Shown: positions 2 to 18,102, counted from the stretch's first letter. The stretch is 27,653 nucleotides of DNA from a virus (IMGVR_UViG_3300030110_003673:1-27653), one strand, 5' to 3'. Notes: generated by a model from the letters alone, not told the origin. Program-made: numbers and translations.

Positions 2-649
2 ATGGGATTCAAGGATTACAAGGTTATAATCTTGGATGAGTGTGATTACATCACACCAAACGCTCAAGCCGCACTTCGTAACCTAATGGAAACATTTAGT
101 AAACATTGTAGGTTTATCTTGACTTGTAATTTTGTCGAGAGAATTATTGACCCGATTCAATCTCGGTGTCAGGCATTTCAAGTAATTCCACCAAACAAAC
201 AAGATGTAGCGAAACATCTACATAATATTTTGACACAAGAGAACATAAATTATGAAAGAGAAGATTTAGGTTTATTAGTCAATAGTGGTTATCCTGATAT
301 TAGGAGAGTTATCAATGGAGCTCAAAGACAATCAGTTGAAGGTATATTAACGATTGATAAACAGAGTATTGTGGAGAACGATTATAAATTAAAATTATTA
401 AAGATTTTAGAAACCCAAGATAAAAAGAGTGCATTCAACAACATTCGTCAGTTGGTTGCCGACTCAAAGGTTACGGATTTTGCTGATTTATTTCGACTTC
501 TATATGATGAAGTTGATACTTATGGTAAAGGACATATTGCCGCTTGTATCTTGGTTATAGCAAAATATGAATTAAGTGATGCCCAAGTGGTTGATAAGGA
601 AATCAACGCTATGGCAATGTTAATAGAGTTATTAGGAATCATAAAATAA
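2..649 (+). CDS. Sliding-clamp loader ATPase subunit, T4 gp44-like (5' end outside window)
   Basis: This is the C-terminal two thirds of an AAA+ clamp-loader subunit, which uses ATP to open the sliding clamp and place it on primer-template DNA. The visible part begins just before Walker B (LDECD, residues 11-15 of the 215 visible). It continues through sensor 1 (TCN, 41-43) to the SRC arginine-finger motif (54-56) and a helical C-terminal collar domain. The Walker A region is missing because the gene runs off the left edge, so the Met at position 2 is internal and not a start. T4 gp44 is 319 residues, which fits about 100 missing here. The partner subunit (gp62-like) is encoded far downstream at 15935. 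The family is clear. Calling it phage rather than cellular RFC rests on the gp62-like partner and the gene context. Confidence 0.9.
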   Translation: MGFKDYKVIILDECDYITPNAQAALRNLMETFSKHCRFILTCNFVERIIDPIQSRCQAFQVIPPNKQDVAKHLHNILTQENINYEREDLGLLVNSGYPDIRRVINGAQRQSVEGILTIDKQSIVENDYKLKLLKILETQDKKSAFNNIRQLVADSKVTDFADLFRLLYDEVDTYGKGHIAACILVIAKYELSDAQVVDKEINAMAMLIELLGIIK

Positions 650-1472: not shown

Positions 1473-2260
1473 TGAATGTATTAGTTATAGGAGATAGTTG
1501 TAAGGATGTATTTGTGTATGGTGATATTACACGAATAAGTCCTGAGGCACCAATTCCTGTATTTGTTCCATCACACACAGAAAAGAATGACGGAATGGCT
1601 CGTAATGTTTCACATAATGTAGAGGCATTACAAATGAACATCACTACGATTACTAATAAAAATGGTATAGTCAAAAAACGATATGTGGATAATCGTAGTG
1701 GTCAGATGGTATTAAGAGTTGATGAGCATGATTATTGTGATAGGATAGATAAAAAAGTTTTAGAAGATTTACGAGATAATAAATGTAGACCACACTTTGG
1801 TTCTGAAAAAAAGATTGATGCGATTATCATATCAGATTATTGTAAAGGATTTTTAGAAGAAGAAGATATTCAATTTATTTGTGATAATAATGATAATGTA
1901 TTTGTGGACACCAAGAAAAAACTTGGTAGTTGGATAAAACAAGCTGACTTCATCAAGATAAATGAATTGGAATACAAAAAAAATCATGAATTATTATCCG
2001 AAAAGGGATTTGAACAGAAACTCATCGTTACATTGGGAAGTAAGGGGTGCAGATATAGAAGTACAGTATATTCTGTTTCTGAAGTGCCAGTTAGGGATGT
2101 AAGTGGTGCAGGTGATACATTTCTTGCTGGGTTGGTTTGTGGATATTTAGATACAGGTAATATAGTTGAGGGAATAAGATTTGCTCAAAGGTGCACCACA
2201 ATTGTAGTGCAAAAACACGGAGTAGCAACCGTAGAATTAAAGGAGTTAGAGAATGGCTAA
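1472..2260 (+). CDS. Compact PfkB-family sugar kinase, RfaE1/HldE kinase-domain-like
   Basis: A 262-residue ribokinase-fold kinase resembling the D-glycero-beta-D-manno-heptose-7-phosphate kinase domain of HldE/RfaE. The RfaE signature RISPEAPIPVF occupies residues 21-31. An NV..NVEAL helix follows at 45-53. The ATP/anion-hole motif DVSGAGDTF is at 209-217, with Asp215 as predicted base. Compared with cellular HldE, about 35 residues seem to be missing after residue 53, where part of the substrate-binding region and lid normally lies. There is no C-terminal adenylyltransferase domain. The protein may therefore have altered substrate choice. It fits the sugar-linked genes at the right end (GT9 at 27257, DegT at 26468). 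Sugar kinase is secure; heptose specificity is inferred. Confidence 0.82.
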   Translation: MNVLVIGDSCKDVFVYGDITRISPEAPIPVFVPSHTEKNDGMARNVSHNVEALQMNITTITNKNGIVKKRYVDNRSGQMVLRVDEHDYCDRIDKKVLEDLRDNKCRPHFGSEKKIDAIIISDYCKGFLEEEDIQFICDNNDNVFVDTKKKLGSWIKQADFIKINELEYKKNHELLSEKGFEQKLIVTLGSKGCRYRSTVYSVSEVPVRDVSGAGDTFLAGLVCGYLDTGNIVEGIRFAQRCTTIVVQKHGVATVELKELENG

Positions 2261-2540
2261 AAGAAAACTACCACCACAAGGTGCACAGCCACAAGTTGAT
2301 TTGTCAAAGGCAGATACTATAAAATGTGAAGATTGTGGAAATTACCTTTTTATTACATCGAATGTGATTAAAAGAATTTCGGCAATAATGTCACCAAGTG
2401 GACAAGAAGCACTTGTACCAATTCAAGTATATAGTTGTGGTAATTGTGGTAAAGTTCCAAAGATGTTCTTAGAAGGAGCAGGGTTAACTGGTGAAGAACC
2501 ACCTAAAGAAGATTCACTTTCAAGATTTGATTTAGGATAA
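2253..2540 (+). CDS. Zinc-ribbon protein of unknown function
   Basis: A 95-residue protein with two CxxC knuckles (Cys25/Cys28 and Cys62/Cys65) that would form a zinc ribbon. It has a basic, proline-rich N-terminus (AKRKLPPQG) and an acidic tail. The segment between the knuckles is mostly beta-prone. I recall similar small zinc-ribbon proteins in T4-like marine phages, but no function is known to me. The start overlaps the kinase gene by 8 nt, preceded by a purine-rich AAGGAG-type site. Confidence 0.7.
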   Translation: MAKRKLPPQGAQPQVDLSKADTIKCEDCGNYLFITSNVIKRISAIMSPSGQEALVPIQVYSCGNCGKVPKMFLEGAGLTGEEPPKEDSLSRFDLG

Positions 2541-2779
2541 TGTCTTTAAATCTACTTGGTGATTACATCTTCAAAAGAATACAGAAAGACAATACAGATA
2601 ATCGAAATATTAAATATAAACCACGAGAATCTATGACTGGTTTATATATTGGTGCCAAAGATATACAAAGATATATCAATGATTATTTTAATTATGGTAT
2701 AGACCACATGGGCGACAATGAGTGTGCAGACGATAGGATAGAAAGATATTGGGATGATTCAGATGGTATCGAAAAATAA
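2540..2779 (+). CDS. Small hypothetical protein
   Basis: A 79-residue acidic protein that I do not recognise. It is rich in Asp, Asn and Tyr, with a probable amphipathic helix at 43-57 (KDIQRYINDYFNYG) and a strongly acidic C-terminus. Its start overlaps the stop of the previous gene by 1 nt (TAATG), with AGGA just upstream. Its 3' end overlaps the next gene. The compact coupling and matching strand support a real gene. Confidence 0.6.
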   Translation: MSLNLLGDYIFKRIQKDNTDNRNIKYKPRESMTGLYIGAKDIQRYINDYFNYGIDHMGDNECADDRIERYWDDSDGIEK

Positions 2780-3440
2780 AATAGAATCAGTATCATTAGA
2801 TATTGCAAATCATTGGAAAGATAATAATATATTAACTGAGGTGAATCCTCAATGTGGAACTTTTGTTGGGTTTGATTGGGTTGAATATGAGGGAAATTAT
2901 TATCTACCTTCAATTAACACTAATATAGATTTGGGTTATGTAGAACACGAACATTTTAAATTCGATGTTCTGTTAGAATTTTTGAAGGAAAATGAATATA
3001 GTTTTGCTTTAGGGTTAAGAAATTATGCATTCAAAGATAATCCATCAGAGGAATGGACAGATAAACTTAAAGAACTTTTAATTTCTAACGAAATAGAGTA
3101 TGATGAATTTGTAACTGATTTATGGCCAGCATCGATACCTGAGTTTGACATACCACCTAACGTTTTTGTTTTTAGGTATGCATTTGATGAGTATAGTAAG
3201 ATAGATAAGATGGCTTCAAATCAATCGTTATTTGAAGATTTTATGAAAACTTCACTTATCGATTATCCTAATGAAAACGACCAATTCGAAGTATATTATA
3301 ATGGTGGTAAGGATGAAGAACGACCATATAAGACACTCGAATTAGATTTACTGAAAATTACTGATAAAATACGAGTCATAGTTTTTTGTAGTGATAAGGG
3401 AAATTTTATATTACACAATTATAGTAGGAAAAGTAAATGA
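2763..3440 (+). CDS. Hypothetical protein
   Basis: About 225 residues and unrecognised. It is soluble, rich in aromatic and acidic residues, with no membrane segment or obvious catalytic motif. Two in-frame ATGs compete, at 2754 and 2763. I prefer 2763 because GGGA (2751-2754) lies about 8 nt upstream, a usual spacing, whereas for 2754 the same purines abut the codon. It overlaps the previous gene by 17 nt and hands over to the SGNH array with an ATGA overlap. That coupling suggests it is transcribed with the array. Confidence 0.6.
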   Translation: MVSKNKIESVSLDIANHWKDNNILTEVNPQCGTFVGFDWVEYEGNYYLPSINTNIDLGYVEHEHFKFDVLLEFLKENEYSFALGLRNYAFKDNPSEEWTDKLKELLISNEIEYDEFVTDLWPASIPEFDIPPNVFVFRYAFDEYSKIDKMASNQSLFEDFMKTSLIDYPNENDQFEVYYNGGKDEERPYKTLELDLLKITDKIRVIVFCSDKGNFILHNYSRKSK

Positions 3441-4183
3441 TAAAACTTTTATACACCATAGGAGATAGTTGGACTTTTGGAGATGAATTAGTATTTCCTG
3501 AGTTACATTCTTATCCAACCTTATTATCTAAGGAACTTGGTTGTGAGTTAGAAAATGATGCAATAAATGGTGGCCCAAACGATTGGATGTATAGAAAAAC
3601 AATAGAATGGGTTTGTAGTCAAGATAACCTCGATGATGTAGCAGTAATCGTTGGTTGGAGTTCGGTAAATCGTAGAGAAGAAAATTATCAGATTTATCAT
3701 GGTGCATATCAAGATGATGAAGTAGATAAGTTTATTTTTGATAGATTGTATAATGAAGAATTGGAACACTATCGAACTATTTGTAATATGGTCTCGTTAC
3801 AAGAATTTTTAAAGTCCAAAAATGTAAAGTATTTATTTTATCAACCTTGGTATGATGTTTTGGATTGTGAAGGTATTTTAGACAATAAAAGACAGCAAAA
3901 AAATAAATTTAATTGGTTAATGAAAGATGATTCGTTTAAAGACTATCGTAAGGAGTGTTATACCGATGTTTTAACCATTGGGAAAATAATAGAACAAGTA
4001 GATATGAGTCGTGTTATAGGACCAGTAGTTAAGGGTTATGAAAAAGAATACGATGTTAAAAGTATAATGAGTGGTATTTTTGGAAGGAGAGAAGATGGAC
4101 GACCAAAGATGCATCCCAACGAAGAAGGTCATAAGATAATATGTAAATTTTTAAAAGAAAAATTAATAGAATTATACTCGTGA
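3437..4183 (+). CDS. SGNH/GDSL hydrolase-like protein, array copy 1
   Basis: A 248-residue protein with the signatures of the SGNH hydrolase fold, which includes esterases and O-acetyl-ester hydrolases. Block I is GDSWTFG, with nucleophile Ser11. A block III-like GGPND is followed by WMYRK. A GWS motif comes next (VIVGWSSVNRREEN). The C-terminal block V has MHPNEEGH with catalytic His226. The putative Ser-His pair is intact, so this copy is predicted active. No signal peptide is visible, so action would be cytoplasmic or within the virion. It is the first of six consecutive paralogues and overlaps its neighbours by 4 nt on each side. The substrate is unknown; sugar O-acyl groups are one possibility given the glycan genes elsewhere in the window. 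Confidence 0.8.
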   Translation: MIKLLYTIGDSWTFGDELVFPELHSYPTLLSKELGCELENDAINGGPNDWMYRKTIEWVCSQDNLDDVAVIVGWSSVNRREENYQIYHGAYQDDEVDKFIFDRLYNEELEHYRTICNMVSLQEFLKSKNVKYLFYQPWYDVLDCEGILDNKRQQKNKFNWLMKDDSFKDYRKECYTDVLTIGKIIEQVDMSRVIGPVVKGYEKEYDVKSIMSGIFGRREDGRPKMHPNEEGHKIICKFLKEKLIELYS

Positions 4184-4821
4184 AAAAAACACTTTATACG
4201 ATAGGAGATAGTTGGACACAAGGATACGACTTGAAAAATCCTAAAGAAGAATGCTACCCATATCTTCTGTCTAAAAAACTTGATTGTGATTTGATAAATG
4301 AGGCAAAACCAGCAGCCTCAAACGATTGGATGTTTAGAAAATCGGTTGAATGGATTACCACAAACGATACCTCAAATATACACACATTTATAGTTGGATG
4401 GTCACAACCAGATAGACGAGAGGAAAACTTTAATTTTTATCATGGTGGAGCTCCAAAATATGAGAGAATCAACTATGCCGACAATACTATTTCTAATTGG
4501 ATTAGTGATAATTTGTCGAATGAAAAACTATCAAATATAAAAAGTTTTACCTACATTTATACCTTACAGGAAATATTGAAGAAAAATAATATTAATTATT
4601 TATTTTACTTTCCGTGGGATCCGATATTGTTACAGGATGATTGGTATGAAGAAAACATTAAAGAGTATGTTCACGATATATATTTAAGTATAGATTTAGA
4701 TTATTGTGTTGGTCCAGAATTTGATGGTGAAAGGCCAGTTCCAATAGATGAATTAAGACACCCAACTGATGTTGAGCAGACGTGGATATGTAATAAATTA
4801 TATGGGGAGTTGAGTAAATGA
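4180..4821 (+). CDS. SGNH/GDSL hydrolase-like protein, array copy 2 (short form)
   Basis: A 213-residue paralogue with a GTG start inside a GTGA overlap with copy 1. Block I is GDSWTQG (Ser11), block III ASND, then WMFRKSVEW and the GWS..DRREENF motif. Block V is reduced to RHPTDVEQ (His194), lacking the usual Asn after Pro. It lacks a middle segment of about 40 residues (around FR.RD..YD.IKEK) that copies 5 and 6 share, which explains its shorter length. Its N-terminal half is strikingly like copy 6. Serine and histidine remain, so activity is possible. Confidence 0.78.
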   Translation: MKKTLYTIGDSWTQGYDLKNPKEECYPYLLSKKLDCDLINEAKPAASNDWMFRKSVEWITTNDTSNIHTFIVGWSQPDRREENFNFYHGGAPKYERINYADNTISNWISDNLSNEKLSNIKSFTYIYTLQEILKKNNINYLFYFPWDPILLQDDWYEENIKEYVHDIYLSIDLDYCVGPEFDGERPVPIDELRHPTDVEQTWICNKLYGELSK

Positions 4822-5705
4822 AAAAATCTTTATTGTTATTGGTTAGTGATTCTTGGGGAGTTGGTGCAGAAATAGAAAAGGTAGAAGATAATTTATATGT
4901 AAATCATTTACAGCAATATTTAGGATTTGATGAGATAAAAAATCTATCAATGAGTGGTCAAACCAATGACTCAATATATCAATCAACTATTTCTTCCATA
5001 TTTGAATACAAAGATAAATTTAATTTATTTGTTCTCGTGGGATGGACTTCTCCTGAAAGGAAACTATTTTCTTTTAATAGATTATACGAGGGTGGAAAAT
5101 CACCATATAATTTTAGTCATGTACCAGGTATGATTTACCAAGAAGATAAAGACTATGGGTGTGATTCACCTAAACAAAAAAGTGATTTAAAACATTTCTT
5201 GAACTTGTATAATAAATATTGTTGGAGCGTTGAGGAATCTTTAGAAAGATGGAGTTATCAAATGGTCACCCTTCATCGATTGTTAATTTCTTATGATATA
5301 AAACATTTGTTTTTTAATAATTTTTATCCGTATGGTTCAATGTATGATTTTTTTAAGGATAGTATCATAGATAATGTCATGCAGTCAGATGTAGATGAAT
5401 TTTTTGGTCATAATGAAGAAGTAAAAGATTTACATTTATATAGTGAACCACTAAAGTCGAGTGATGAGTTAAATTTTAATGAAAATGAGAAAAATTTAAT
5501 TTCTCAGATAAACAAGAAGAATATTTTTCCCAACACACTATTAAATGTTTTGAGAGATAAATATGAGAATAAAGAAAGACCTCCGATGAAAGTATCATCT
5601 GCAAAACCAAACAACCCAACACTGGCATCTGGTGGTCATCCAAATGAATTTGGACATATAGAAATAGCAAATATGTTATATAATTATATTAAAGAGATTG
5701 ATTAA
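4818..5705 (+). CDS. SGNH/GDSL hydrolase-like protein, array copy 3 (long, diverged)
   Basis: A 295-residue diverged paralogue. Block I reads SDSWGVG (Ser12; the usual Gly before Asp is Ser). Block III is GQTND, followed by a VGWTSPERK segment. Block V is GGHPNEFGH (His274). It carries extra sequence in the middle and before the C-terminus (roughly 120-250), rich in Asn, Asp and Phe. The catalytic Ser, Asn and His positions appear kept. The start is in an ATGA overlap with copy 2. The divergence shows it is an older branch than copies 5 and 6. Confidence 0.75.
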   Translation: MKKSLLLLVSDSWGVGAEIEKVEDNLYVNHLQQYLGFDEIKNLSMSGQTNDSIYQSTISSIFEYKDKFNLFVLVGWTSPERKLFSFNRLYEGGKSPYNFSHVPGMIYQEDKDYGCDSPKQKSDLKHFLNLYNKYCWSVEESLERWSYQMVTLHRLLISYDIKHLFFNNFYPYGSMYDFFKDSIIDNVMQSDVDEFFGHNEEVKDLHLYSEPLKSSDELNFNENEKNLISQINKKNIFPNTLLNVLRDKYENKERPPMKVSSAKPNNPTLASGGHPNEFGHIEIANMLYNYIKEID

Positions 5706-6511
5706 TGTTCGCAGTAGTAGGATGTTCATTTACTCGTGGTGAAAGATTATTTTATCATAGATATGTGGATGTCAATGAAAATGGCCATTTTATACCAAAG
5801 GATTCACCTTATAGTGGTGAGTTAGAAATTCCAAAAACTCACAGAGGTTTTAGGGCTAACATTCCTATTTTTGGTAAGGTAGATGATTCTAATCATATGG
5901 CTATAGCAACCATAGATGATAAAAGGTTTCAATTAGACCATACTGCAGCAGGATTGTTATCAAAAAAATTAAATTGTGAGTATTTTCAATCATCTGGTCA
6001 TAATGATGGGAATCATAATCAGATAAAAGAATGGATAGACTTATCAAATAAAGTTTCAGAAAGAAAATTAGATTTTATTATTTGGCAACTAACTGATCCA
6101 CAGAGAGATTTAGAAGATGTTACTAATTTTTGGAGTAAACTAAACTCAATATCTACACCACCTGAAGAAAAGGAAAAACTTTGGAATCACATTACTAATG
6201 AAATACCACAGAAAACAATAGGTCATATTGTAGAGTTGGATAAAAAATGTAAAGAAAGTGATATTGATTTATTTGTTTGGAGTTGGCAAGATGATATTGC
6301 AAAACTGATAAAAAACGAGGATTATTTTGTTAGGTTGGTTCATAATGATAAGTGGTATCGTTCTTTTAATCACTTTAAAGATACAAGTAAATTAGATGTT
6401 GAATTGAGTCAAATTTTTAATACTGAAGATAATCACCCAAATAAATTTTTTAATGAGGTGTTGTATAATTCACTACTGATAAAACTGAGACAGAGGGGAT
6501 ATGAAATCTAA
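5705..6511 (+). CDS. SGNH hydrolase-like protein, array copy 4 (most diverged)
   Basis: A 268-residue protein whose N-terminus (VVGCSFTRG, Ser8) is the GCSFT variant of block I. GHNDGNHN corresponds to block III, and a C-terminal DNHPNKFF (His244) to block V. The region after block I is expanded. The middle reads DFIIWQLTDPQRD where other copies have the GWS motif, so the topology is kept although identity is low. It could be a distinct SGNH subfamily placed in the array, not a direct duplicate. The start shares 1 nt with the stop of copy 3 (TAATG). Its last residues (RGYEI) are encoded by the junction that also begins copy 5. Confidence 0.68.
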   Translation: MFAVVGCSFTRGERLFYHRYVDVNENGHFIPKDSPYSGELEIPKTHRGFRANIPIFGKVDDSNHMAIATIDDKRFQLDHTAAGLLSKKLNCEYFQSSGHNDGNHNQIKEWIDLSNKVSERKLDFIIWQLTDPQRDLEDVTNFWSKLNSISTPPEEKEKLWNHITNEIPQKTIGHIVELDKKCKESDIDLFVWSWQDDIAKLIKNEDYFVRLVHNDKWYRSFNHFKDTSKLDVELSQIFNTEDNHPNKFFNEVLYNSLLIKLRQRGYEI

Positions 6512-7211
6512 AATTTTATATACCGTAGGAGATAGTTGGACTTATGGGGATGATTTAAAAAACCCACAAATTGAATCGTATCCCTATTTACTCTCAAAAA
6601 GAATTGGATGTGATTTGGTAAACGATGGTAAGAATTTTGCTGGAAATGATTGGATATTCAGAAAATCTGTTGAATTCATTACAAGTAATAAAATAGAAAA
6701 TATTCATACCTTTATAGTGGGATGGTCTAATCATTGTAGGAGAGAGGAAAATTTTAAATTTTTCTATGGTGGTTCACCTAAAATAGAAAAGGCATTTAGA
6801 GCAAGAGATAGTCAGTATGACTTGATAAAAGAGAAAGTTGGTAATCTAAGTAGGGTTGTGTTAAAAAATAAATTATTAGGTGATGAAGATGAAACTTCTA
6901 AAATAATTAGTGAATTACTTTATAATAAGGAATTGTCAATTATTAAAAGTCTTACCTATATGGTATCATTACAGGAATTACTAAAGAGTAAAAATATAAA
7001 TTATGTTTTTTATTTTCCGTGGTACGATATTTTAACCGAAGAACATAACATCAATGATATTTATTCGCAGATAGATAGGAATTATTGTTTAGGACCGACT
7101 ATTGATGGTGATAAAATACCAACTGATAACGCTCGTCATCCAAATAAAAAAGAACACCAGTGGATATCCGATAAACTATACGATTTTATAGGAGATAAAT
7201 ATGGAATCTAA
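6501..7211 (+). CDS. SGNH/GDSL hydrolase-like protein, array copy 5
   Basis: A 236-residue paralogue with intact signatures: GDSWTYG (Ser12), AGND then WIFRKSVEF, VGWSNHCRREENF, and block V RHPNKKEHQW (His213). It shares with copy 6 a middle segment (RD..YD.IKEK.G.LSRVV) and a C-terminus ending IGDKYG followed by Ile or Phe. These two are the closest pair by their 3' halves. The gene begins inside copy 4 and ends inside copy 6, each time with an 11-nt overlap. Predicted catalytically competent; substrate unknown. Confidence 0.8.
   Translation: MKSKILYTVGDSWTYGDDLKNPQIESYPYLLSKRIGCDLVNDGKNFAGNDWIFRKSVEFITSNKIENIHTFIVGWSNHCRREENFKFFYGGSPKIEKAFRARDSQYDLIKEKVGNLSRVVLKNKLLGDEDETSKIISELLYNKELSIIKSLTYMVSLQELLKSKNINYVFYFPWYDILTEEHNINDIYSQIDRNYCLGPTIDGDKIPTDNARHPNKKEHQWISDKLYDFIGDKYGI
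7183..7205 (+). repeat. Junction direct repeat, copy A (pair with 7919-7941)
   Basis: A 23-nt stretch identical to 7919-7941. It contains AGGAGA, an internal ribosome-binding site within the end of an SGNH gene, followed by ATAAATATGGA, which includes the next gene's start codon. It marks the boundary of the duplicated unit and shows that the translational coupling signal was duplicated with the gene. Confidence 0.85.
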
Positions 7212-7947
7212 AATTTTATATACCATAGGAAATTGTATGACATTGGGAGTCGAGTTGGATAATCCTGAAGTAGAATCTTATCCGTATCTTTTATCACAAA
7301 AATTAGGTTGTGAGTTAATAAATCAGGCTGAACCAGCATCATCTAACGATTGGATTTTTAGGAAGTCAGTTGAATGGATTGCCACAAATGATACTTCAAA
7401 GGTGCATACTTTTATAGTAGGATGGTCATCACCTGATAGACGAGAAGAAAACTTTAAATTTTTCTACGGAGGCCCATCTCAAATAGAATGTGGATTCAGA
7501 AAAAGAGATGACCATTACGATATAATAAAGGAAAAAATAGGAAAACTAAGTAGAGTAGTAAAAGAACATATACATTTAGGTAAAGAGGATAGCACTTCTA
7601 AGGTAATTAGTGAACTGCTTTATAATAAAGAATTATCACTTATAAAAACTCTTACTTATGTGTATTCATTACAAGAGCTACTAAAGAGTAAAAACATAAA
7701 TTATGTTTTCTTTTTTCCTGGTTGGTATGGTATATTAATGAAAGAAAAGGGTATTAGTGATATTTATTTACATATAGATAAAAAATATTGTATAGAGCAA
7801 ACAATTGATGATACAAAAAAAGGTAATTGGGTAAGTTGGTATTCGGAAGATTCGGAAATTTTATCAGGTCGTCATCCAAATAAGAAAGAACATAAATGGA
7901 TGTCAGATAAATTGTATCATTTTATAGGAGATAAATATGGATTTTAA
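7201..7947 (+). CDS. SGNH-like protein, array copy 6, with altered active site (Asp-Ser-Trp to Asn-Cys-Met)
   Basis: A 248-residue paralogue in which block I is GNCMTLG (residues 10-16) instead of GDSWTxG. Three adjacent codons at 7231-7239 differ, and the nucleophile Ser is replaced by Cys12. The rest of the fold is retained: SSND then WIFRKSVEW, GWSSPDRREENF, and RHPNKKEHKW with His225. The reading frame is intact along its length, so this is not a plain pseudogene. Either Cys12 serves as an alternative nucleophile or the protein is a non-catalytic partner. Residues 27-85 are closer to copy 2 than to copy 5, whereas the middle and 3' part match copy 5, which suggests recombination. An insertion with KKGNWVSWYSED lies just before block V. 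Confidence 0.78.
   Translation: MESKILYTIGNCMTLGVELDNPEVESYPYLLSQKLGCELINQAEPASSNDWIFRKSVEWIATNDTSKVHTFIVGWSSPDRREENFKFFYGGPSQIECGFRKRDDHYDIIKEKIGKLSRVVKEHIHLGKEDSTSKVISELLYNKELSLIKTLTYVYSLQELLKSKNINYVFFFPGWYGILMKEKGISDIYLHIDKKYCIEQTIDDTKKGNWVSWYSEDSEILSGRHPNKKEHKWMSDKLYHFIGDKYGF
7919..7941 (+). repeat. Junction direct repeat, copy B (pair with 7183-7205)
   Basis: The second copy of the 23-nt junction, identical to 7183-7205. Here it supplies the AGGAGA ribosome site and ATG for the unrelated gene at 7937. The start region of the neighbouring gene therefore appears to have been fused to, or to have supplied, the repeated junction. Confidence 0.85.
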
Positions 7948-8365
7948 CATAACAGCTGCAAGAAGATATACTTCAAGTGGTTCACTCGACAATGTAGTTT
8001 ATGCAATAGCCTACCAATTTGAAATGAGTGGTTCTTCAAATAAATGGGATGGTAGTAATAATTGGTATAATTACAATACATATTCTGATTGGCACTTCTG
8101 TGGTCATGCAGATCCAGATAATTTTACTGCATTTGATAGCCTAACGACTTCATCTTATGAATCTTGGGTTCAGGCATCACATGGTGATAATTGGGGTGAT
8201 TATACTTCAAGTATAGAAACGAGAATGAGTGCAAGTTTGGCATTACGAGTAAATGAAAGTCCAACCGACCATCTTTCTTGGCAAACTGGATCACACGTTG
8301 TGTGTGGATTAGCTCTTGCAAGTGGCAGTGAATTTCAAGGACATTATTTTAACGAACATTTTTAA
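7937..8365 (+). CDS. Small conserved phage protein, DUF7936-like (tandem copy 1)
   Basis: A 142-residue protein. The layout matches a small family I recall from T4-like marine phages (DUF7936-like): an N-terminal beta-rich part (SGSLDNVVYAIAYQFEM), then DPDNFTAFDSLT, an aromatic SWV helix and a helix ending ALRVNES before a short tail. In the phage family the middle reads like PY..LTE..V..WV. Function is unknown. The next gene is a clear paralogue, sharing SGS..(D/N)VVYA, DEENF-type and GEYTSSI.(T/E)R elements. It overlaps SGNH copy 6 by 11 nt and uses the AGGAGA inside that gene. Confidence 0.65.
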   Translation: MDFNITAARRYTSSGSLDNVVYAIAYQFEMSGSSNKWDGSNNWYNYNTYSDWHFCGHADPDNFTAFDSLTTSSYESWVQASHGDNWGDYTSSIETRMSASLALRVNESPTDHLSWQTGSHVVCGLALASGSEFQGHYFNEHF

Positions 8366-8371
8366 GAGAGG
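8366..8371 (+). promoter_or_regulatory. Ribosome site deciding the GTG start at 8378
   Basis: GAGAGG immediately follows the stop of the previous gene and sits 6 nt before GTG at 8378. No in-frame ATG lies nearby, so this site supports a GTG start. Confidence 0.65.
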
Positions 8372-8377
8372 TTTTAA

Positions 8378-8848
8378 GTGAGGTGGTTAATAGACGATAG
8401 TATTAGATATAAACAAAGTGGTTCATTCGAAGATGTTGTGTATGCAGTAAGATATTGTTTCGAAGAAACTGGTTCATCTTGTATTGAAGGACAACATAAT
8501 ATTGTGGCTATTAAAGGTCATTATGGTGCACCACGAGTGGATGAGGAAAATTTTATACCTTATGAGAATGTAACCACTTCATCATTTAAAGAATGGATTC
8601 AAGATTCCTATGGTTCAGAGTGGGGAGAATACACTTCAAGTATTCAAGAAAGATTGATATCAAATTTAGAATCAAGAGTAAATCATAAAGCTTCCATTGT
8701 TCATATTTGGCCAGGTGGAGAACAAACAATAGATATACCAGATTGGTTTGAAAGGCCAGGACACCCACGATTAGCCAGAAGTACTTATGCACAAGGTGGA
8801 AAGCCAGATGACAAAATTGGACATTTAAAAAGAACAAATACTGATTAA
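8378..8848 (+). CDS. Small conserved phage protein, DUF7936-like (tandem copy 2)
   Basis: A 156-residue paralogue of the 7937 product, with a GTG start supported by GAGAGG 6 nt upstream. Shared features in order: SGSFEDVVYAVRY (about 15-27), DEENFIPYENVTTSS, a WIQDSYGSEWGEYTSSI helix region and a LESRVNH segment. Beyond this it has its own C-terminal extension of about 45 residues (IWPGGEQ to the end), rich in Gly, Pro and basic residues. No enzymatic motif is seen. Duplicated small genes next to the duplicated SGNH genes suggest that this part of the genome readily expands by tandem copying. Confidence 0.62.
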   Translation: MRWLIDDSIRYKQSGSFEDVVYAVRYCFEETGSSCIEGQHNIVAIKGHYGAPRVDEENFIPYENVTTSSFKEWIQDSYGSEWGEYTSSIQERLISNLESRVNHKASIVHIWPGGEQTIDIPDWFERPGHPRLARSTYAQGGKPDDKIGHLKRTNTD

Positions 8849-10014
8849 TGATAAAATTTGATTTTAATCTACACAACTATACTGAACATAAAGTTTCAAA
8901 GAATATTAAAAGAATAGAGGTTATTGACCGAAAAAAATTACAAGATGGAATTGATACTTTTCAAAAAGAATTAGACTGGCAACAAATGTGGTCAGTTGAT
9001 GATGCAGAAAAAAGATTGAAAGATAATTGGTGGTTTTATATAATAGAAAAAAATGATAAATATATTGGTTGGGCGTGGTTTGATACACCAAACAAACAAT
9101 TTTGTAATTTGTATGTTCATAAAAATTACAGAGATGATGGTTATGGTAAAGATTTGGTTTATGTAAGATTAAACGAATGTAAGAAACAAGGTATTGAAAG
9201 GGTTTGGATGGAAGTTCAAAAGTGGAATATACCTATTCAAAAGATTAATCAAGAACTTGGTTGGACACCAAAAATACATTATACATTTTGGACTGGTGGT
9301 TATGATTCAACTTATTTAGTTTGCAAATTATTATTGAATAATAAAATTGTTCAACCTATTTATATTGATGATGGGATAAATCATGGTGGATATCATTCTA
9401 ATCCATTATCAGCACAAAGAGGAGATAATTCTTATCCAAGACAATCTACGAGTATAGAGAGGGATAGAATTGAGTGGTTAGTAAATAGAATACATAAAAT
9501 TATACCAAATTCTAAAGATTTATTATTATCATTAATGGTTATAGATAATCCTATAAAAGAAGATAAACATATAAGTGATGTTATAAAAAAATATAACGAA
9601 TGGATACCCGAACCATTGTTTAAGGATAAGAATGGTAATCCACATTGGTTAGAAGTTCAAGCGGACATACTAACACGATTTCAAAAGGAATTCGGTATGG
9701 AAGTTTTTTACTCGAATGACCATATTGATGGAGAAGTTTGGGAAGCATTAGATGACGCGATAGAGGATGGAAAGTTGAATGTGGATAAGTTATCAGATGA
9801 GTATAAAGAATTTGAGATATTTAGTGGGTTTAACCAACCATTGAGAACCACCAATAAAGAAGAAATGTTAGAGGATTCAAAACAACTTGGATTTGACGAG
9901 TTGTTGTATTACACTTGGACTTGTTGGTATCCAAAAGATGATGAACCTTGTAATGAATGTAAAATGTGTAAGGAGAGAATAATAGAATGTCGGAACATTG
10001 GGGATACCATTTAG
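8848..10014 (+). CDS. GNAT acetyltransferase - QueC-like PP-loop ATPase fusion
   Basis: A 388-residue two-domain protein. Residues about 20-140 form a GNAT N-acyltransferase domain, with the acetyl-CoA loop RDDGYG (95-100) after strand NLYVHKNY and a closing ELGW. Residues about 143-388 form a PP-loop pyrophosphatase/ATPase: TGGYDST (149-155) is the PP-loop, normally SGG.DS. The C-terminus has four cysteines (359, 368, 371, 374) in the pattern of the QueC zinc site. QueC makes 7-cyano-7-deazaguanine (preQ0), and preQ0-type bases are used in some phage DNA modification systems. The PP-loop domain has a Ser-to-Thr change and a long insertion, so the product may differ. No queD, queE or dpdA is seen in the window. 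The fold assignments are strong; the reaction is inferred. Confidence 0.78.
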   Translation: MIKFDFNLHNYTEHKVSKNIKRIEVIDRKKLQDGIDTFQKELDWQQMWSVDDAEKRLKDNWWFYIIEKNDKYIGWAWFDTPNKQFCNLYVHKNYRDDGYGKDLVYVRLNECKKQGIERVWMEVQKWNIPIQKINQELGWTPKIHYTFWTGGYDSTYLVCKLLLNNKIVQPIYIDDGINHGGYHSNPLSAQRGDNSYPRQSTSIERDRIEWLVNRIHKIIPNSKDLLLSLMVIDNPIKEDKHISDVIKKYNEWIPEPLFKDKNGNPHWLEVQADILTRFQKEFGMEVFYSNDHIDGEVWEALDDAIEDGKLNVDKLSDEYKEFEIFSGFNQPLRTTNKEEMLEDSKQLGFDELLYYTWTCWYPKDDEPCNECKMCKERIIECRNIGDTI

Positions 10015-10352
10015 TACTTGATTGTAAAAATGGAAGAAATTTAAACGAAGATTCAGAAGAAGATATCAGAGTTTTTATAAAAGAACTCGTAAATAAAATA
10101 GATATGGTAGCATACGGAGAACCAAATATAGCATATCTACCAACACCAGACACACCCGAAAAGTCAGGATGGTCGGTAGTTCAGTTAATTTATACGAGTA
10201 GTATTACTTGTCATTTTGCTGACGAAAGTGGTGATTTCTATTTGGATGTTTTTTCGTGTAAAAAATTTGATAGAGACATAGTTATAGATTATGTGAAGCA
10301 ATATTTTTCACCTTTTAGTGTGAAAGAGAAATACTTATTAAGACAATCGTAA
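9987..10352 (+). CDS. speD: S-adenosylmethionine decarboxylase proenzyme (SpeD-like)
   Basis: A 121-residue bacterial/archaeal-type AdoMet decarboxylase, which makes the aminopropyl donor for spermidine. It self-cleaves to form an N-terminal pyruvoyl group. The key positions keep the spacing known from Thermotoga maritima SpeD (Ser55, Ser63, His68, Cys83): here Ser63, Ser71, His76 and Cys91. Ser71 is the predicted pyruvoyl serine. The residue before it is Thr70 instead of the usual Glu. DVFSC (87-91) is the diagnostic motif. Length is normal for the family. It overlaps the previous gene by 28 nt, with AGGAGA upstream. No spermidine synthase gene is present, so it would feed a host enzyme. SpeD genes are known in marine cyanophages. 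Confidence 0.87.
   Translation: MSEHWGYHLVLDCKNGRNLNEDSEEDIRVFIKELVNKIDMVAYGEPNIAYLPTPDTPEKSGWSVVQLIYTSSITCHFADESGDFYLDVFSCKKFDRDIVIDYVKQYFSPFSVKEKYLLRQS
10331..10340 (+). promoter_or_regulatory. Possible promoter-like element ATACTTATTA
   Basis: The 10-mer ATACTTATTA lies within the end of speD, 36 nt before the porin-like gene. The same 10-mer occurs at 19641-19650, in one of the few intergenic gaps, and ATACTTATAT occurs at 20532-20541 in another. Three positions upstream of non-overlapping gene starts suggest a phage promoter core, but AT-richness makes chance matches likely. Confidence 0.25.
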
Positions 10353-10375
10353 ACTAAACAAAGGAGATACGAGAA

Positions 10376-11245
10376 ATGAAAAGGTTATTATTGATATTAG
10401 GAATGGTTTCAGTTCTAACAGCGCAAACAGCAACAATGTCCAATAATATAATTGGATACACCACAATTAATGAGAAACATGATCCAGATGGTGCAGAAGA
10501 TAGAAATGGTGATGAATATGAATCTACTATTTCTTTTGAAAAACCATACCTTTGGTCATTCATTAAAAGTGATGATAAATCTTGGATGGCATCCATCTTC
10601 GTAGACGCACCTTGGGCAAGAGGTAGTGTTTATGTTGAGGAGTTATTCTATAAACCATATAGTGATAAGTTCACTATTGGATTAGGACGACAAGCAATTC
10701 CATTTGGTTCTAATGTTCCATATTTGGATTTAACAAGAGGTGATAAATTTACCTATCAAACACCAACACCTAACGATGTTGGTTTGTTATATTTCGGAGA
10801 TGGTGTTAGTGTTTATGGTGGAGTTGGTAATTGGTTCATCGAAACCTATCACGGAAACGATATAGAAAATGGATTCGAGGAATACACAGCTGGTCGTGTG
10901 AGTTATGAATTTGGTGACCACTTTGTTGGTGTATCAGTCGATAATGAAAACAGACAGGCACTTGATGTAAGTGGATATAGTGAGTTCGTAGATTATGTTA
11001 CAGAATTTAGGGAAGATTACCAATGGGGAAGAGCCGTTGTTAGACTACCTAATATGTGGCATCTAAAAGGATTAGGACTAATTGCAGGTTTAGAAAGAAC
11101 CGAAGATGAAACACAGGCACTTTATGGTGTAACTTGGAGTTACGGAGAAAATCGTTTTCTCTCTACCGAATTAAGTGGTGATGGTGATTTGAAGGTTAAG
11201 TTGTATTATGGTTTTAACTTAAAGATAGGAAAAGAAAATGAATAA
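10376..11245 (+). CDS. Secreted beta-barrel / porin-like outer-membrane protein
   Basis: A 289-residue protein beginning with a clear Sec signal peptide (MKRLLLILGMVSVLTAQ, cleavage probably near residues 15-19). The rest is made of alternating aromatic/polar beta-strands with tight Gly/Asp turns. It includes GLGRQAIPFG (about 98-107), typical of porin-like barrels, and ends in paired strands (LKVKLYYGFNLKIG). This fits a barrel in the host outer membrane or a barrel-derived exported protein. The start is well supported by AAGGAGA at 10361-10367. It overlaps the EamA gene by 8 nt, so a barrel and an inner-membrane transporter are made together. A porin-like gene is rare in a virulent phage. 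Function as a channel is inferred. Confidence 0.72.
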   Translation: MKRLLLILGMVSVLTAQTATMSNNIIGYTTINEKHDPDGAEDRNGDEYESTISFEKPYLWSFIKSDDKSWMASIFVDAPWARGSVYVEELFYKPYSDKFTIGLGRQAIPFGSNVPYLDLTRGDKFTYQTPTPNDVGLLYFGDGVSVYGGVGNWFIETYHGNDIENGFEEYTAGRVSYEFGDHFVGVSVDNENRQALDVSGYSEFVDYVTEFREDYQWGRAVVRLPNMWHLKGLGLIAGLERTEDETQALYGVTWSYGENRFLSTELSGDGDLKVKLYYGFNLKIGKENE

Positions 11246-12146
11246 ATTTTTAAAAGGATTTATAGCAGCAGCAGTTGCAATATTTGCTTGGTCAACCCTT
11301 GAGGTTACTGGTAGTTTTATATTCGCTGAAGGAGCAGGACCTGTATCGGTTTTATCGGTTAGGTTTCTAATCGCCACACTATTGTTTGGTGGAGTGATGT
11401 TATGGAAAAAACAAACAACAGGTGAAAATCTGTTTATAGTTGAGAAAGAGGATAGAAAGACATTTCTGTTAAATGGTGTAATATTGGCAGCACACTTATT
11501 GGTGTATTGGTTCGCTTGGGAATTACTCGACCCGAACCTACCTGTGATTTACGCAATATTCTATATGTATCCATTTGTTCTGTGTCTGATTTCGATTTAC
11601 TATTATGGTGAACGATTTAGTACAAATAGAAAGATAGCATTAGGATTGGGAACTCTCGGTTGTATGTTTGCAATAGAACTTATACCATCATTTTCAACCG
11701 AAGCTCTAAACACCAAAGGTATATTGTTGGATGTTGCAGCTTGTTTAACATGGGTTGGATATGTTCTCGTAGGACAGACCATAATGAAAAAATATAAACC
11801 ACTTACAATTGTTTTTTATGATTTTCTACAAGTGTTTGTTTATGTTTCATTATTCCAATCACCCACGACTACATTTTCTGAAGTCACACTTAGTGGATTA
11901 TTGGCAATAGCTTACATATCAGTAGTAGCAAGTTTTATCGCTTACTTATGTTATTGGTACGCAATCAAACAAATAGGTGCATCGAATGTTGGGATTGCTG
12001 AATTAGGAACACCAATATTTGGGGTAACACTTGGTTATTTCTTTTTAACCATGACTCCATCTTTATGGCAAATACTTGGACTTGTAATGATTTCAAGTGG
12101 TTTGGTTTTGGTTTATAAGGAAAAACAAGTAGTATATGACCAATGA
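11238..12146 (+). CDS. EamA/DMT-family membrane transporter
   Basis: A 302-residue inner-membrane protein with about ten hydrophobic segments arranged as two EamA repeats (about 5-140 and 155-297). Family features include the Glu/Pro-containing first helix (AWSTLEVTGSFIF), the R-F-L-I-A-T-L-L-F helix and a C-terminal copy ending GLVLVYKEK. Length is normal. EamA proteins of the drug/metabolite transporter superfamily usually move amino acids, nucleobases, amines or similar metabolites, often outward. The substrate cannot be read from the sequence. It follows the porin-like gene with an 8-nt overlap and precedes the DUF1989 gene with an 11-nt overlap. Confidence 0.88.
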   Translation: MNKFLKGFIAAAVAIFAWSTLEVTGSFIFAEGAGPVSVLSVRFLIATLLFGGVMLWKKQTTGENLFIVEKEDRKTFLLNGVILAAHLLVYWFAWELLDPNLPVIYAIFYMYPFVLCLISIYYYGERFSTNRKIALGLGTLGCMFAIELIPSFSTEALNTKGILLDVAACLTWVGYVLVGQTIMKKYKPLTIVFYDFLQVFVYVSLFQSPTTTFSEVTLSGLLAIAYISVVASFIAYLCYWYAIKQIGASNVGIAELGTPIFGVTLGYFFLTMTPSLWQILGLVMISSGLVLVYKEKQVVYDQ

Positions 12147-12819
12147 GTTTATCGTTGAGAGTGGTGGATTTACATTTGTAGTTCCTAAAAATCATAATTT
12201 TAAATTTGAATTATTAGAAGGACAGCAAATAATAGATGTTGCCATATGGAGTAAAGACAATCCAAAAAAAGAATTTCTTAGTATGGGACATTCTTTGTGG
12301 AAAAATGGTAGATTTATTAGTTTAGGCTCTTACCTTTGGTCAGACTATAAAAAAAGAAGGGTTATTGCTAAATGTGTGGACGAGACTTGGTTTGAATCAT
12401 CAAACGAAGGTTGGTATCATCATTTACTTCAAGGATATTGTGATGATGAAGAAAATCAAGGCCGTGGAAGTTGTAAGACAAACTTTCTTAATAGTATAAA
12501 GGAGTTTGGATTAGGAGTTGAGCATCTAAATGACAATACGATAAATTTATTTGAAAAGGTAATGGTTAGTGGTGGACGAAATTTACTATTCTCAGCAGAT
12601 TCAGATGCAACGAAGGGAGACCAAATAACCTTTCAAAGTTATATTGATTTATTGATATCGGTATCACTTTGTCCTACAATACATAATAAAACAGAAACAG
12701 ATAGTAACTACAACTTGGAAACAAAGGATCCAGACTATCATTATGATTTTATAGATAGGGTAAATTCAATAAAGATTTCAGTAAATCCAAATAAATTACC
12801 ATATCAGGTATATGAATAA
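12136..12819 (+). CDS. DUF1989 (urea carboxylase-associated family) protein
   Basis: A 227-residue protein that follows the DUF1989 pattern: an N-terminal beta-rich part (GQQIIDVAIW at 29-38), LWSDYKKRRVI, then conserved Cys102 (GYCDD), Cys113 (GSCKTNF), N..NLF (134-139), a GDQITFQ strand and Cys179-Pro180 near the end. The three cysteines are likely metal ligands. Known members include urea-amidolyase-associated proteins and the carboxyguanidine deiminase subunits of guanidine degradation. Members with unknown substrates are also common. Occurrence beside a transporter and speD suggests amine or nitrogen metabolism. I do not know this family from other phages. The exact reaction is unassigned. 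Confidence 0.72.
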   Translation: MTNEFIVESGGFTFVVPKNHNFKFELLEGQQIIDVAIWSKDNPKKEFLSMGHSLWKNGRFISLGSYLWSDYKKRRVIAKCVDETWFESSNEGWYHHLLQGYCDDEENQGRGSCKTNFLNSIKEFGLGVEHLNDNTINLFEKVMVSGGRNLLFSADSDATKGDQITFQSYIDLLISVSLCPTIHNKTETDSNYNLETKDPDYHYDFIDRVNSIKISVNPNKLPYQVYE

Positions 12820-13315
12820 AACAGAAAAATATATCTTAGAATGGTATAAAAATAAGATATGGACAAAACCCTTTTCGTCTAAAATATGTGATGGAATTGG
12901 AATGGTGGCTATTCGTGATATACCAAAAGAAACAAGTATATTTGATTTGGCAGAAAAAAGTGTTTATGGTTGGATTCCGATAGATGAGGCTAAGACAATA
13001 CCAAATGGAGTTTTGAGGTGGGCATTAGAAGGTCAACCACAGGCAGATTTGGATGTAATGAATTCATCAAACTTATATGATAATTTTTTACAAGGAAAAT
13101 ATGGAGATTTGTGGGCATACACACAAAAGGGAATGAATTGGCAAACAACTTGGTATTTTGTTAATCATTCGTTAGAGAATCCTAATGTATCAGTTCATTC
13201 TACTGGTCATCCAAGAGTATTTAAATATATTACCCTTAGAGATATTTATGAGGGGGAAGAAATTTTAGAAAATTATAATGAACACACATCGGCATGGAGA
13301 GGTAATGAAAAATAA
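12812..13315 (+). CDS. SET-domain protein (putative protein-lysine methyltransferase)
   Basis: A 167-residue protein with SET-fold motifs in order: GIGMVAIRDIPKE (28-40), the AdoMet/active-site NHS.ENPN motif (118-125), and GEEILENYNE (148-157) with Tyr155 as the conserved catalytic tyrosine. SET proteins transfer methyl groups from AdoMet to lysine side chains, sometimes on ribosomal or chromatin proteins. Small stand-alone SET proteins of this size occur in bacteria. The target is unknown; a phage or host translation or DNA-binding protein is conceivable. It overlaps its neighbours by 8 nt upstream and 11 nt downstream. Confidence 0.8.
   Translation: MNKTEKYILEWYKNKIWTKPFSSKICDGIGMVAIRDIPKETSIFDLAEKSVYGWIPIDEAKTIPNGVLRWALEGQPQADLDVMNSSNLYDNFLQGKYGDLWAYTQKGMNWQTTWYFVNHSLENPNVSVHSTGHPRVFKYITLRDIYEGEEILENYNEHTSAWRGNEK
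13296..13302 (+). promoter_or_regulatory. Ribosome site deciding the start at 13305
   Basis: GGAGAGG lies just upstream of ATG 13305. The earlier in-frame ATG at 13278 has no purine-rich site before it, so the shorter form is preferred. Confidence 0.6.
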
Positions 13316-14240
13316 ATACGATAGTTTACTTTATATTGATTTTGGAGAATTAAGTCCTGAAGAATGGACAGGAGTGTGGGAGTTTGATTCACTTACCGAG
13401 ATAAAACAACCAACTATTGTAAGGTATATCCCAAATCAAACTGTCGTTCAATTCTGGCAAGGTCCTTATTGGAACGAGGAAACAAAATCTTGGGAAAATG
13501 ACTTCACAAATCTAAGTAATTTTTATAATAGTGATGTTTTAAAAGGAATACCGATATGTCGTTGTTATACACCGATTGAAGTTAATTATAGTGCAGAATT
13601 AGCATATTATATAGAATCACCCGATGTCCACGATTTTTGTATATATTTTCCAGCCGATACTTTTGAACAGAGAAGAAATATGCAAAAGTTGGTATTTGAT
13701 GTTATCGGAGAAGTTCTTGGTGAATTGGGAATAAATACCATGTATGAAAACAATCCTACAGCAAATGATTTATTTTATGAACACAATGATTTAAAAATTG
13801 GTGATGAGGGTAAATATAGAAAGTTTGTCGGTTCATTGTATAAACCATCAGATAATGGTTTTGGTTATCTTGATTTTACCTTAACATACAAGTTTGATTA
13901 CGAATTGGCCAACAAGTTAAGACGAATCGAAAGTGATATAAATATTAAAAAGTATGATATTGAAGATATATCTGATAAAGTGGGTGGATTGTGGGATATT
14001 GATCCTACCATAGATTCAAACAAGATGGATTTGGATGTCATCCAATTATTGGCTAAAAAATTAAATTATTCTCTTGATATAAAATCCCCAACCGATGAAA
14101 TAAAATCAAGGATGTTTAAAAGAGGTCGTAGAAGAATGACAGAAAAGGATTGGTATTTATACGGAGATAATTCAAAATTTCCACCACACCCTTATCGTGG
14201 GTTTGAAACTATCGTAGGGGATTGGATAGATGATACCTAA
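13305..14240 (+). CDS. Lipoate/biotin-protein-ligase-like protein (divergent)
   Basis: A 311-residue protein that resembles the LplA/BPL fold. Around residues 40-55 there is an 'R..PNQTVVQFWQ' segment like the ligand-loop start. GIPICRCYTP (81-90) lies where ligases have the RR..GG motif. A V..EVLGELGI helix follows, then P.ANDLF (152-157), and LKIGDEGKYRKFVGS near 163-177, where the ligase catalytic lysine would be Lys164. The Arg-Arg and Gly-Gly residues are altered, so lipoate or biotin transfer is not assured. A C-terminal extension of about 90 residues is unassigned. The preferred start is 13305, giving an 11-nt overlap with the SET gene. Alternative: an unrelated phage protein with chance similarity. 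Confidence 0.45.
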   Translation: MKNKYDSLLYIDFGELSPEEWTGVWEFDSLTEIKQPTIVRYIPNQTVVQFWQGPYWNEETKSWENDFTNLSNFYNSDVLKGIPICRCYTPIEVNYSAELAYYIESPDVHDFCIYFPADTFEQRRNMQKLVFDVIGEVLGELGINTMYENNPTANDLFYEHNDLKIGDEGKYRKFVGSLYKPSDNGFGYLDFTLTYKFDYELANKLRRIESDINIKKYDIEDISDKVGGLWDIDPTIDSNKMDLDVIQLLAKKLNYSLDIKSPTDEIKSRMFKRGRRRMTEKDWYLYGDNSKFPPHPYRGFETIVGDWIDDT

Positions 14241-15282
14241 AAAATGTTACTTTGGTCGTATTTATGGTCGATTATCCACAAAAGGTGAGTATCAGATTTG
14301 CTGTGGAAAGGTGCCAACATCTGGTGATTATCACATCGATGGTAAATTCATAGACTATTGGAAATCAGATAAATTAAATAATTTACTTACTCAACTAAGA
14401 GATAATCTTGATGAGATGAATAAAACTTGGGCAGATGGTCATTGTGATTATTGTCCTCATTCTGTAATCAACGAGAAACTTCATAATGGTGAAATAGACA
14501 TTCCAACTTCACCAATCACTTTTAACATAGATGTTATCAATGTCTGTGACCACAGATGTAACTTTTGTTGGCACTGGTCATATGATATGATAGATGATAA
14601 GGCACAATTTGATGGATTTTCAGATTGGGCTAAAGAGAAATTAGATTTACAGATATTCAAGGATACCGTAGATGGTTTGGTAGAACTTGGTGATTGTGAG
14701 GAGATACAAATTGGTGGTGGGGGAGAACCATTGTTGCACCCAAATATACACGAAATGATAAACTATGTCAAGGAAAATAATTTATCTTGTAAATTGATAA
14801 CCAATTTTTGTCAGATAACAGAAGAACAACTCGACAATTTAATCGAGGTAGGACTCGATGATATCTTGATTAATATATCGGCAGGAAAAAGAAAAACTTA
14901 TTGTGAGACGAGACGCGTACAGTCAAAGGTGTGGGATAAATTGTTGTCTAACATAGGGCATATACTTAAAAATAGAACAACAGATGTTCCAAGACTAACA
15001 TTAAAGAGTGTAATTAATAGCGAAAATGTTCACGAAGTTGGTCACATGGTAGATTTAGGAGTGACACGTGGAGTTGATGTTGTTTCTTTGAGATTTTTTC
15101 AAGAGGATGGAGTTTATGATTCCGATAGTAAAATTGTTAGTAAAGAACAAAAAATTAAATTTGATGAAATACTTATAGATAAGATAAATGAATATGGATA
15201 TGAAAAATATGAAGATGACGATTCTTTTATTTATAATTATAAATCACAACAAACAAACACTTTATTAAGGGGAGATGTATGA
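14230..15282 (+). CDS. Radical SAM enzyme with N-terminal SPASM-like cysteine region
   Basis: A 350-residue radical SAM protein. The [4Fe-4S] motif C-D-H-R-C-N-F-C gives Cys106, Cys110 and Cys113 (CxxxCxxC). GGGEP (163-167) is the AdoMet-binding motif, and strands of the partial TIM barrel follow. Before the core, residues 1-80 contain Cys24-Cys25 in a GEYQICCGK strand, a W.SD.LN.L..QLRD segment and Cys72..Cys75 (CDYCPHS). This looks like a SPASM/auxiliary-cluster domain placed ahead of the barrel instead of after it. SPASM enzymes usually modify peptides or proteins. The gene sits between a ligase-like gene and an oxygenase gene with overlaps of 11 and 4 nt. The substrate is unknown, and there is no obvious short precursor peptide next to it. 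Confidence 0.85.
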   Translation: MIPKKCYFGRIYGRLSTKGEYQICCGKVPTSGDYHIDGKFIDYWKSDKLNNLLTQLRDNLDEMNKTWADGHCDYCPHSVINEKLHNGEIDIPTSPITFNIDVINVCDHRCNFCWHWSYDMIDDKAQFDGFSDWAKEKLDLQIFKDTVDGLVELGDCEEIQIGGGGEPLLHPNIHEMINYVKENNLSCKLITNFCQITEEQLDNLIEVGLDDILINISAGKRKTYCETRRVQSKVWDKLLSNIGHILKNRTTDVPRLTLKSVINSENVHEVGHMVDLGVTRGVDVVSLRFFQEDGVYDSDSKIVSKEQKIKFDEILIDKINEYGYEKYEDDDSFIYNYKSQQTNTLLRGDV

Positions 15283-15962: not shown

Positions 15963-16405
15963 AGAAAAACAAAGGTCTATTCGACCATATCACTCACATT
16001 ACTCAAAAACAAACTAAAGATTATTGGAATTCTCTAAACGAAACAGAGCAAAAGCAGTGGTCTAATTATATGATACATAGATTCTTATCTATGAAGGCTG
16101 AATATGTAGAAGTGGTGAATGAGATTCAAAAATACAACTTGAAACCAAAGGATTTATACAAATTATATACCAATGTTCTTCCAAAGAAAAAAGAATGGTT
16201 GAGATATACAAAAGGAAAGAAAGATATGAAATATGAAAAGTGGTTAGTTGAAGTAGTAGCAAAACATTACGAATCAAGTTTGTCAGAGGCAAGACAATAC
16301 TTGGAAGTGTTTTACTCTACCGAACAAAATAAAGCAAATCTAAAATCCATATTACAAAAATATGGTATCGAACCAAAGGAAATTAAAAAACTTAGACTAC
16401 CTTAA
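15935..16405 (+). CDS. Clamp-loader small subunit, T4 gp62-like
   Basis: A 156-residue, basic, mostly helical protein resembling T4 gp62, the single non-ATPase subunit that completes the gp44/gp62 clamp loader. The recognisable parts are the N-terminal KGLFDHI..IT..K, then the YMIHRFLSM segment (about 45-54), which aligns with the 'MVNRGLS' region of gp62. VNEIQKYNLKPKD follows, and then basic LPKKKEWLRYTKGKKD. It starts with GTG, supported by a ribosome site. In T4 the gene follows 44 directly. Here the ATPase gene ends at 649, some 15 kb upstream. The assignment rests on pattern and length plus the presence of a gp44-like gene. Confidence 0.78.
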   Translation: MGNNNKVGLKKNKGLFDHITHITQKQTKDYWNSLNETEQKQWSNYMIHRFLSMKAEYVEVVNEIQKYNLKPKDLYKLYTNVLPKKKEWLRYTKGKKDMKYEKWLVEVVAKHYESSLSEARQYLEVFYSTEQNKANLKSILQKYGIEPKEIKKLRLP

Positions 16406-18095: not shown

Positions 18096-18102
18096 AAAAT
18101 GG

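Follow-up and report, generated by a model that had tools for sequence, protein, structure and literature searches.

An array of six SGNH-fold genes carried in a clamp-loader island of a marine T4-like phage

Introduction

Why would one phage carry six genes for proteins of the same fold side by side? The question is raised by IMGVR_UViG_3300030110_003673, a viral DNA stretch of 27,653 nucleotides (the window, meaning this whole stretch), in which six consecutive SGNH genes occupy positions 3437-7947 of the + strand and encode proteins of 248, 213, 295, 268, 236 and 248 residues. A first-pass annotation had described six consecutive SGNH-hydrolase-like genes of 213 to 295 residues, and all six open reading frames (ORFs) were found. 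The six belong to one SGNH-fold phage protein family, comprising Pfam DUF6071 and its relatives, and they are carried as cargo in an accessory island that has gp62 on one side and, on the other, the zinc-ribbon gene lying after gp44.

SGNH enzymes known from phages are deacetylases of tail fibres (PMC13123978), including gp63.1 of phage G7C and those of Klebsiella prophages. The array proteins have in common with these the presence of an SGNH fold in a phage protein, but they are free-standing, encoded in tandem, lack fibre domains and sit in a replication-gene island. A literature search, which was conducted without most subscription papers and leaves the lack of a description unproven, returned no mention of DUF6071; likewise, nothing relevant was found there to set against the earlier claim that no phage system built from such an array has been described.

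Fold and family of the array proteins

An iterated hidden Markov model (HMM) search, seeded with copies 1, 2, 5 and 6 and run over 1525 ORFs from 21 records, converged at 55 members, with zero reversed-sequence decoys at E<0.1 on convergence. Marine relatives are also multi-copy for the family. To keep the test from being circular, leave-clade-out HMMs were built without the divergent copy in question and its sister, and they nevertheless recovered copy 3 at 1.9e-28, copy 4 at 1.4e-8 and copy 7, a further family member of 284 residues outside the island (25257..26111, + strand), at 4.4e-29. The corresponding E-values of copies 1, 2, 5 and 6 were 1e-58, 1e-71, 1e-64 and 1e-61. All copies thus fall in a single family rather than in unrelated ones, at pairwise identities that range from about 66% (copies 5 and 6) down to about 20%.

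With regard to Pfam DUF6071 (PF19547), whose gathering cut-off is 27 bits, copies 1 (48.3 bits, E 1.3e-12), 2 (33.6 bits, 4.1e-8) and 6 (33.5 bits, 4.3e-8) exceed the cut-off, copies 5 (25.2 bits) and 7 (23.1 bits) fall just under it, copy 3 reaches 19.5 bits and copy 4 has no match. The majority of related loci match DUF6071. Searches of NCBIfam and PHROGs with the array copies gave no meaningful match, and annotated phage records yielded no tblastn match to copies 1, 4, 5 or 7 or to two relatives. Nothing was found by a profile scan of genome contigs with an alignment of copies 1, 2, 5 and 6, or by viral scans queried singly with copies 3, 4 and 5. The viral scan with copy 7 returned as its sole match another contig of the same virus.

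The fold itself was assessed on two copies. An AlphaFold2 model of copy 5, built from an alignment of 35 family members (pLDDT 87.6), gave 52 matches in the PDB at E<=1e-3, and among the matches listed nearly all are SGNH esterases (TesA, EstA, acetyl xylan esterases). In BFVD the model matched many free-standing proteins of uncultured Caudovirales phages, with top TM-scores of about 0.6-0.7, and a profile search reached GDSL structures (4rsh, 1.9e-4). The model of copy 4 (pLDDT 79.5) is closest in the PDB to SsfX3, an SGNH acyltransferase (E 0.014, probability 0.97), and its other matches are weak, so the share of copy 4 in the fold rests mainly on the sequence profile. The three-layer alpha/beta/alpha SGNH fold, in line with the SGNH-hydrolase-like label of the first-pass annotation, is thus clear in the model of copy 5 and weak in that of copy 4, and it is assigned to the other copies by homology.

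One family member in a related record (L028:9425-10633) has about 190 additional N-terminal residues in frame (FVGGSSGSFVKRLF), and this extended ORF may have arisen by fusion of domains or may be two genes read through as one.

Layout of the array

The array genes follow one another at 3437..4183 (copy 1), 4180..4821 (copy 2, with a GTG start), 4818..5705 (copy 3), 5705..6511 (copy 4), 6501..7211 (copy 5) and 7201..7947 (copy 6), all on the + strand. Their junctions overlap by 1, 4 or 11 nt, copies 1 and 2 by 4 nt, and from these overlaps and the coupled starts the genes look translationally coupled. Copies 5 and 6 share ATAGGAGATAAATATGGA at their 3' ends; it holds the ribosome-binding site and start of the next gene, and the common junction fits a tandem duplication.

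An island between clamp-loader genes

The array is part of a 13.4-kb variable accessory island (2541..15934). Its left edge is the zinc-ribbon gene (2253..2540, + strand), and upstream lies the gene of the clamp-loader large subunit gp44 (2..649, + strand; phrog_168, 2e-45; tblastn matches to T4-like phages), whose 5' end is cut off. The right edge is the clamp-loader small subunit gene gp62 (15935..16405, + strand; phrog_225, 7e-17), whose profile matches the gene annotated as clamp loader A subunit in Microcystis phage Mel-JY01 (3e-24). In Mel-JY01, the three genes gp44, zinc ribbon and gp62 adjoin one another.

A scan for the zinc-ribbon family gave 276 relatives, of which 80 were kept. The gap between the zinc-ribbon gene and gp62, with sizes bounded by 8-kb flanks and loci counted without dereplication, is near-empty (-22 to 450 b) in 30 of 42 loci, measures 4.6-7.8 kb in 11, and reaches 13.4 kb in the window. 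Whole records reveal islands beyond the 8-kb flanks, of about 10-11 kb, in G001, G003, G005, G006 and G007. Near the zinc ribbon, 20 of 28 distinct loci hold no SGNH gene, six hold one, one holds three and the window holds six; G007 has two there and a third near gp62. The six of the window are the highest count seen, and since the remaining island carriers have 0-3, the array is an extreme case of a widespread phage enzyme family. The records or positions of all 20 core-clade members (20/20) are consistent with this island. The 'compact phage genome' of the earlier description is not established, as the T4-like phage is represented in this record by a linear fragment of 27.7 kb, and a relative's contig extends to 132 kb.

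In pelagimyophages, hypervariable islands that contain glycosyltransferases are found at other genome positions (PMC7029224). The hypervariable islands of T4-like cyanophages and pelagimyophages resemble the present one in that accessory cargo keeps a constant position amid core genes; unlike those described, which lie in the structural region or between the replication and structural modules, the window's island splits the clamp-loader gene pair. This is an unexpected place for a variable island, where occupied and near-empty sites can be seen side by side, and a comparison of phages that have from 0 to 6 copies there makes the role of the cargo directly testable.

Other cargo at the same site includes 2OG-Fe(II) oxygenases and a protein of about 900 residues without a Pfam match (L085:3761-9247; also in L071, L091, L098 and L139). 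ClpP-like proteases flank the island, one on each side (870-1472 and 17499-18095 in the window).

Active-site motifs

In copy 5, G10-D-S12 follows strand 1, strand 2 leads into a helix that begins with xxGxSND, GWS and R80 follow strand 3, and H213-P214 opens the last helix. Across the family, Ser12 is conserved in 44/46 members, G10 in 45/46, His213 in 47/47 and Arg80 in 49/49. These features place the proteins next to the SGNH/GDSL hydrolases (TesA, EstA, acetyl xylan esterases, CE2) in fold, block I Ser, block V His and block order, and apart from them in block III, in the invariant Arg80 and in having no fixed Asp at -3 of the His. The first-pass annotation had taken (G/S)xND for block III; because this motif begins the helix that follows strand 2, it corresponds to block II. 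The canonical block III Asn (GxND) is absent, and its position is occupied by GW[ST]xxxR with the invariant Arg. The family defines an SGNH subfamily that is widespread in marine phages and has unusual signatures in its active site.

The individual copies depart from the consensus to different extents. The proposed block I GDSWTxG applies to copies 1 (GDSWTFG), 2 (GDSWTQG), 5 (GDSWTYG) and 7, but reads SDSWGVG in copy 3, GCSFTRG in copy 4 and GNCMTLG in copy 6, the only window copy in which the catalytic Ser is replaced (by Cys). The block II motif reads GGPND in copy 1, AASND in copy 2, GQTND in copy 3 and FAGND in copy 5. GWS holds as a motif after strand 3, as GWS or GWT (GWSSVNR, GWSQPDR, GWTSPER and GWSNHCR in copies 1, 2, 3 and 5), except in copy 4, which has WQLT (WQLTDPQR). 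The HPN of block V likewise stands in most copies (MHPN, GHPN, NHPN and RHPN in copies 1, 3, 4 and 5), with HPT (RHPT) in copy 2 and HPS in copy 7. Copy 6 keeps all motifs other than block I. The other serine-less member is G007:11374, with GDN (Ser to Asn).

Origin of the copies

The copies had been regarded as a lineage expansion within one phage. A single tandem or lineage expansion was rejected, since monophyly of the six has a p-AU of 5e-83. In the tree, copies 5 and 6 are sisters (100/98), copy 1 groups with its orthologues, single genes of G006, G007 and G011, and copy 2 lies near genes of G001 and G003 with weak support. Copy 3 is a long branch outside the core clade, the most divergent copy 4 pairs with G006:130115 (100/100), which is outside the island, and copy 7 pairs with G011:24795 (100/100). 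An exclusive clade of copies 1, 2, 5 and 6 is rejected (p-AU 2e-56), and one of copies 2, 5 and 6 is not (0.07). Copies 1, 2, 5 and 6 are members of an island-resident clade in which 5 and 6 alone are tandem sisters, and copies 3 and 4 derive from other clades. The array thus grew by tandem duplication (copies 5 and 6) and by the gathering of older, separately evolved members (copies 1, 2, 3 and 4).

Among copies 1, 2, 5 and 6, pairwise dN/dS is about 0.11-0.39 with dS>1.1, values that are rough because dS is close to saturation. A low dN/dS at a high dS points to old copies that have been kept functional and retained by purifying selection. The GC profile shows no compositional trace of recent transfer.

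At G006:130115-131623 (L130/L068), outside the clamp-loader island, the copy 4 orthologue is directly followed by another SGNH gene at the contig end, possibly a second array that has been cut there.

Proposed function and alternatives

On balance, and with some reserve, we favour the reading that the array products are cytosolic Ser-His acyl-esterases or acyltransferases, held under purifying selection and diversified in their substrates. No secretion signal is apparent in the array proteins, because the catalytic domain begins in the first residues, and no fibre domain was seen. In such free-standing cytosolic enzymes Ser12 would attack the acyl ester with His213 as the base, block II (GxSN) and the GW[ST] loop would form the oxyanion and substrate pocket, and the invariant Arg80 may bind an anionic group of the substrate. 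The copies would differ in their acyl substrate, which could be sugars, nucleotide-sugars, lipids or other small molecules, and might serve host takeover or metabolic reprogramming rather than the virion. Copy 6, with Cys for Ser, may have an altered chemistry or a non-catalytic role. A fuller version, proposed tentatively, is a battery of six diverged free-standing enzymes of a hitherto unrecognised subfamily in one coupled operon inside the clamp-loader genes, with GW[ST]xxxR as block III and without the classical triad Asp, that would act on separate host acyl substrates or work together as catalytic and non-catalytic subunits.

Several observations weigh against the favoured reading as acyl-processing enzymes. 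Copy 6 and its relative G007:11374 are without the nucleophile serine, the family alignment has no conserved acid three residues before the invariant His, and Ser/Thr takes the place of the block III Asn. A classical triad cannot be assumed, as the usual Asp at -3 of the His is missing and the block III Asn is replaced. SGNH esterases with a catalytic dyad are known, and the position of D192, an acid in 78% of family members, could possibly take the triad role. Sugar genes are not enriched beside family members, so the neighbours give no hint of the substrate. The T4-type late-promoter motif TATAAATA is at control level everywhere, which leaves no contrast from which to infer expression timing. 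The near-saturated dS and the flank-bounded gaps in loci that were not dereplicated belong here too.

Two alternatives have an outside chance. The island could be a recombination hot spot that acquires and duplicates SGNH genes, most copies being redundant and their high number transient. The range of 0-6 copies at one site that is near-empty in many relatives would suit this, as would the likewise duplicated DUF7936 gene that adjoins the array and the position of the window as a lone outlier; however, all compared copies have stayed intact with a dN/dS far under 1 across long spans of time (dS>1.1), and orthologues of copies 1 and 4 occur in other phages. About equally improbable is a role in glycan biosynthesis, in which the enzymes would O-acylate or deacylate a phage-directed sugar. 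Copy 7 adjoins GT2, DegT and further sugar genes of the same virus, and the PfkB kinase resembles cyanophage heptose kinases, but among the top 25 families listed GT2 matches occur in 2/148 near neighbours of family members and in 6/142 distant genes of the same records.

It seems rather improbable that the copies form a hetero-oligomer or a set of enzymes and pseudoenzymes, with the serine-less copy 6 and G007:11374 as non-catalytic partners. Overlapping coupled cistrons would favour such an assembly, and the nucleophile has been lost in two core-clade members, both from multi-copy records, with the rest of the site kept; yet many relatives have one island copy, which implies that partners are not obligatory, and divergence to about 20% identity is uncommon among subunits that build a single ring. 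A role as virion or receptor-binding esterases that remove acetyl groups from the host surface, like the tail fibres of phage G7C or Klebsiella prophages, is very unlikely here: SGNH domains are common in phage tail fibres as active deacetylases (PMC13123978) and there is a weak profile match to the tail-associated lysin gp59 (6v8i, E 0.001), but the proteins are free-standing, of 213-295 residues and without a fibre or attachment domain, and their genes sit among replication and accessory genes, not structural ones.

Neighbouring genes

The array of presumed acyl-processing enzymes sits in a conserved order of gp44, ClpP, PfkB kinase, zinc ribbon, a 228-aa gene, SGNH genes, DUF7936, GNAT-QueC, SAM decarboxylase, an outer-membrane-like protein and an EamA transporter. 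The 228-aa gene (2754..3440, + strand) adjoins most core-clade SGNH genes in relatives and also occurs without them. Directly 3' of the array lies a tandem DUF7936 pair (7937..8848, + strand), whose counterpart behind the SGNH gene of G001, G003 and G004 is one DUF7936 gene, and then a GNAT acetyltransferase fused to a QueC-like PP-loop domain (8848..10014, + strand), a conserved downstream neighbour of SGNH genes. More generally, PfkB, ClpP, GNAT, sulfotransferase and QueC-like genes are found as neighbours of family members.

Copy 7 lies between the GT2 glycosyltransferase gene and a 127-aa gene, an arrangement also seen in G011. A second contig of the same virus, L067 (99.8% over 11.2 kb), runs on into further sugar-nucleotide genes, as read from sequence only. 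Its genes at 10827-20850 resemble DegT, a hexapeptide acetyltransferase, UDP-GlcNAc 2-epimerase, a Gfo/Idh oxidoreductase, an NAD epimerase and a sulfotransferase, and they are possibly a phage-borne pathway for a sugar of the diacetamido-uronic-acid type.

A pair formed by an outer-membrane-like protein and an inner-membrane transporter recurs in the island, as the outer-membrane-like protein and EamA in the window (10376-12146) and as DUF5020 and Vut_1 in a relative (L089:11013-12309), which suggests a role in nutrient uptake.

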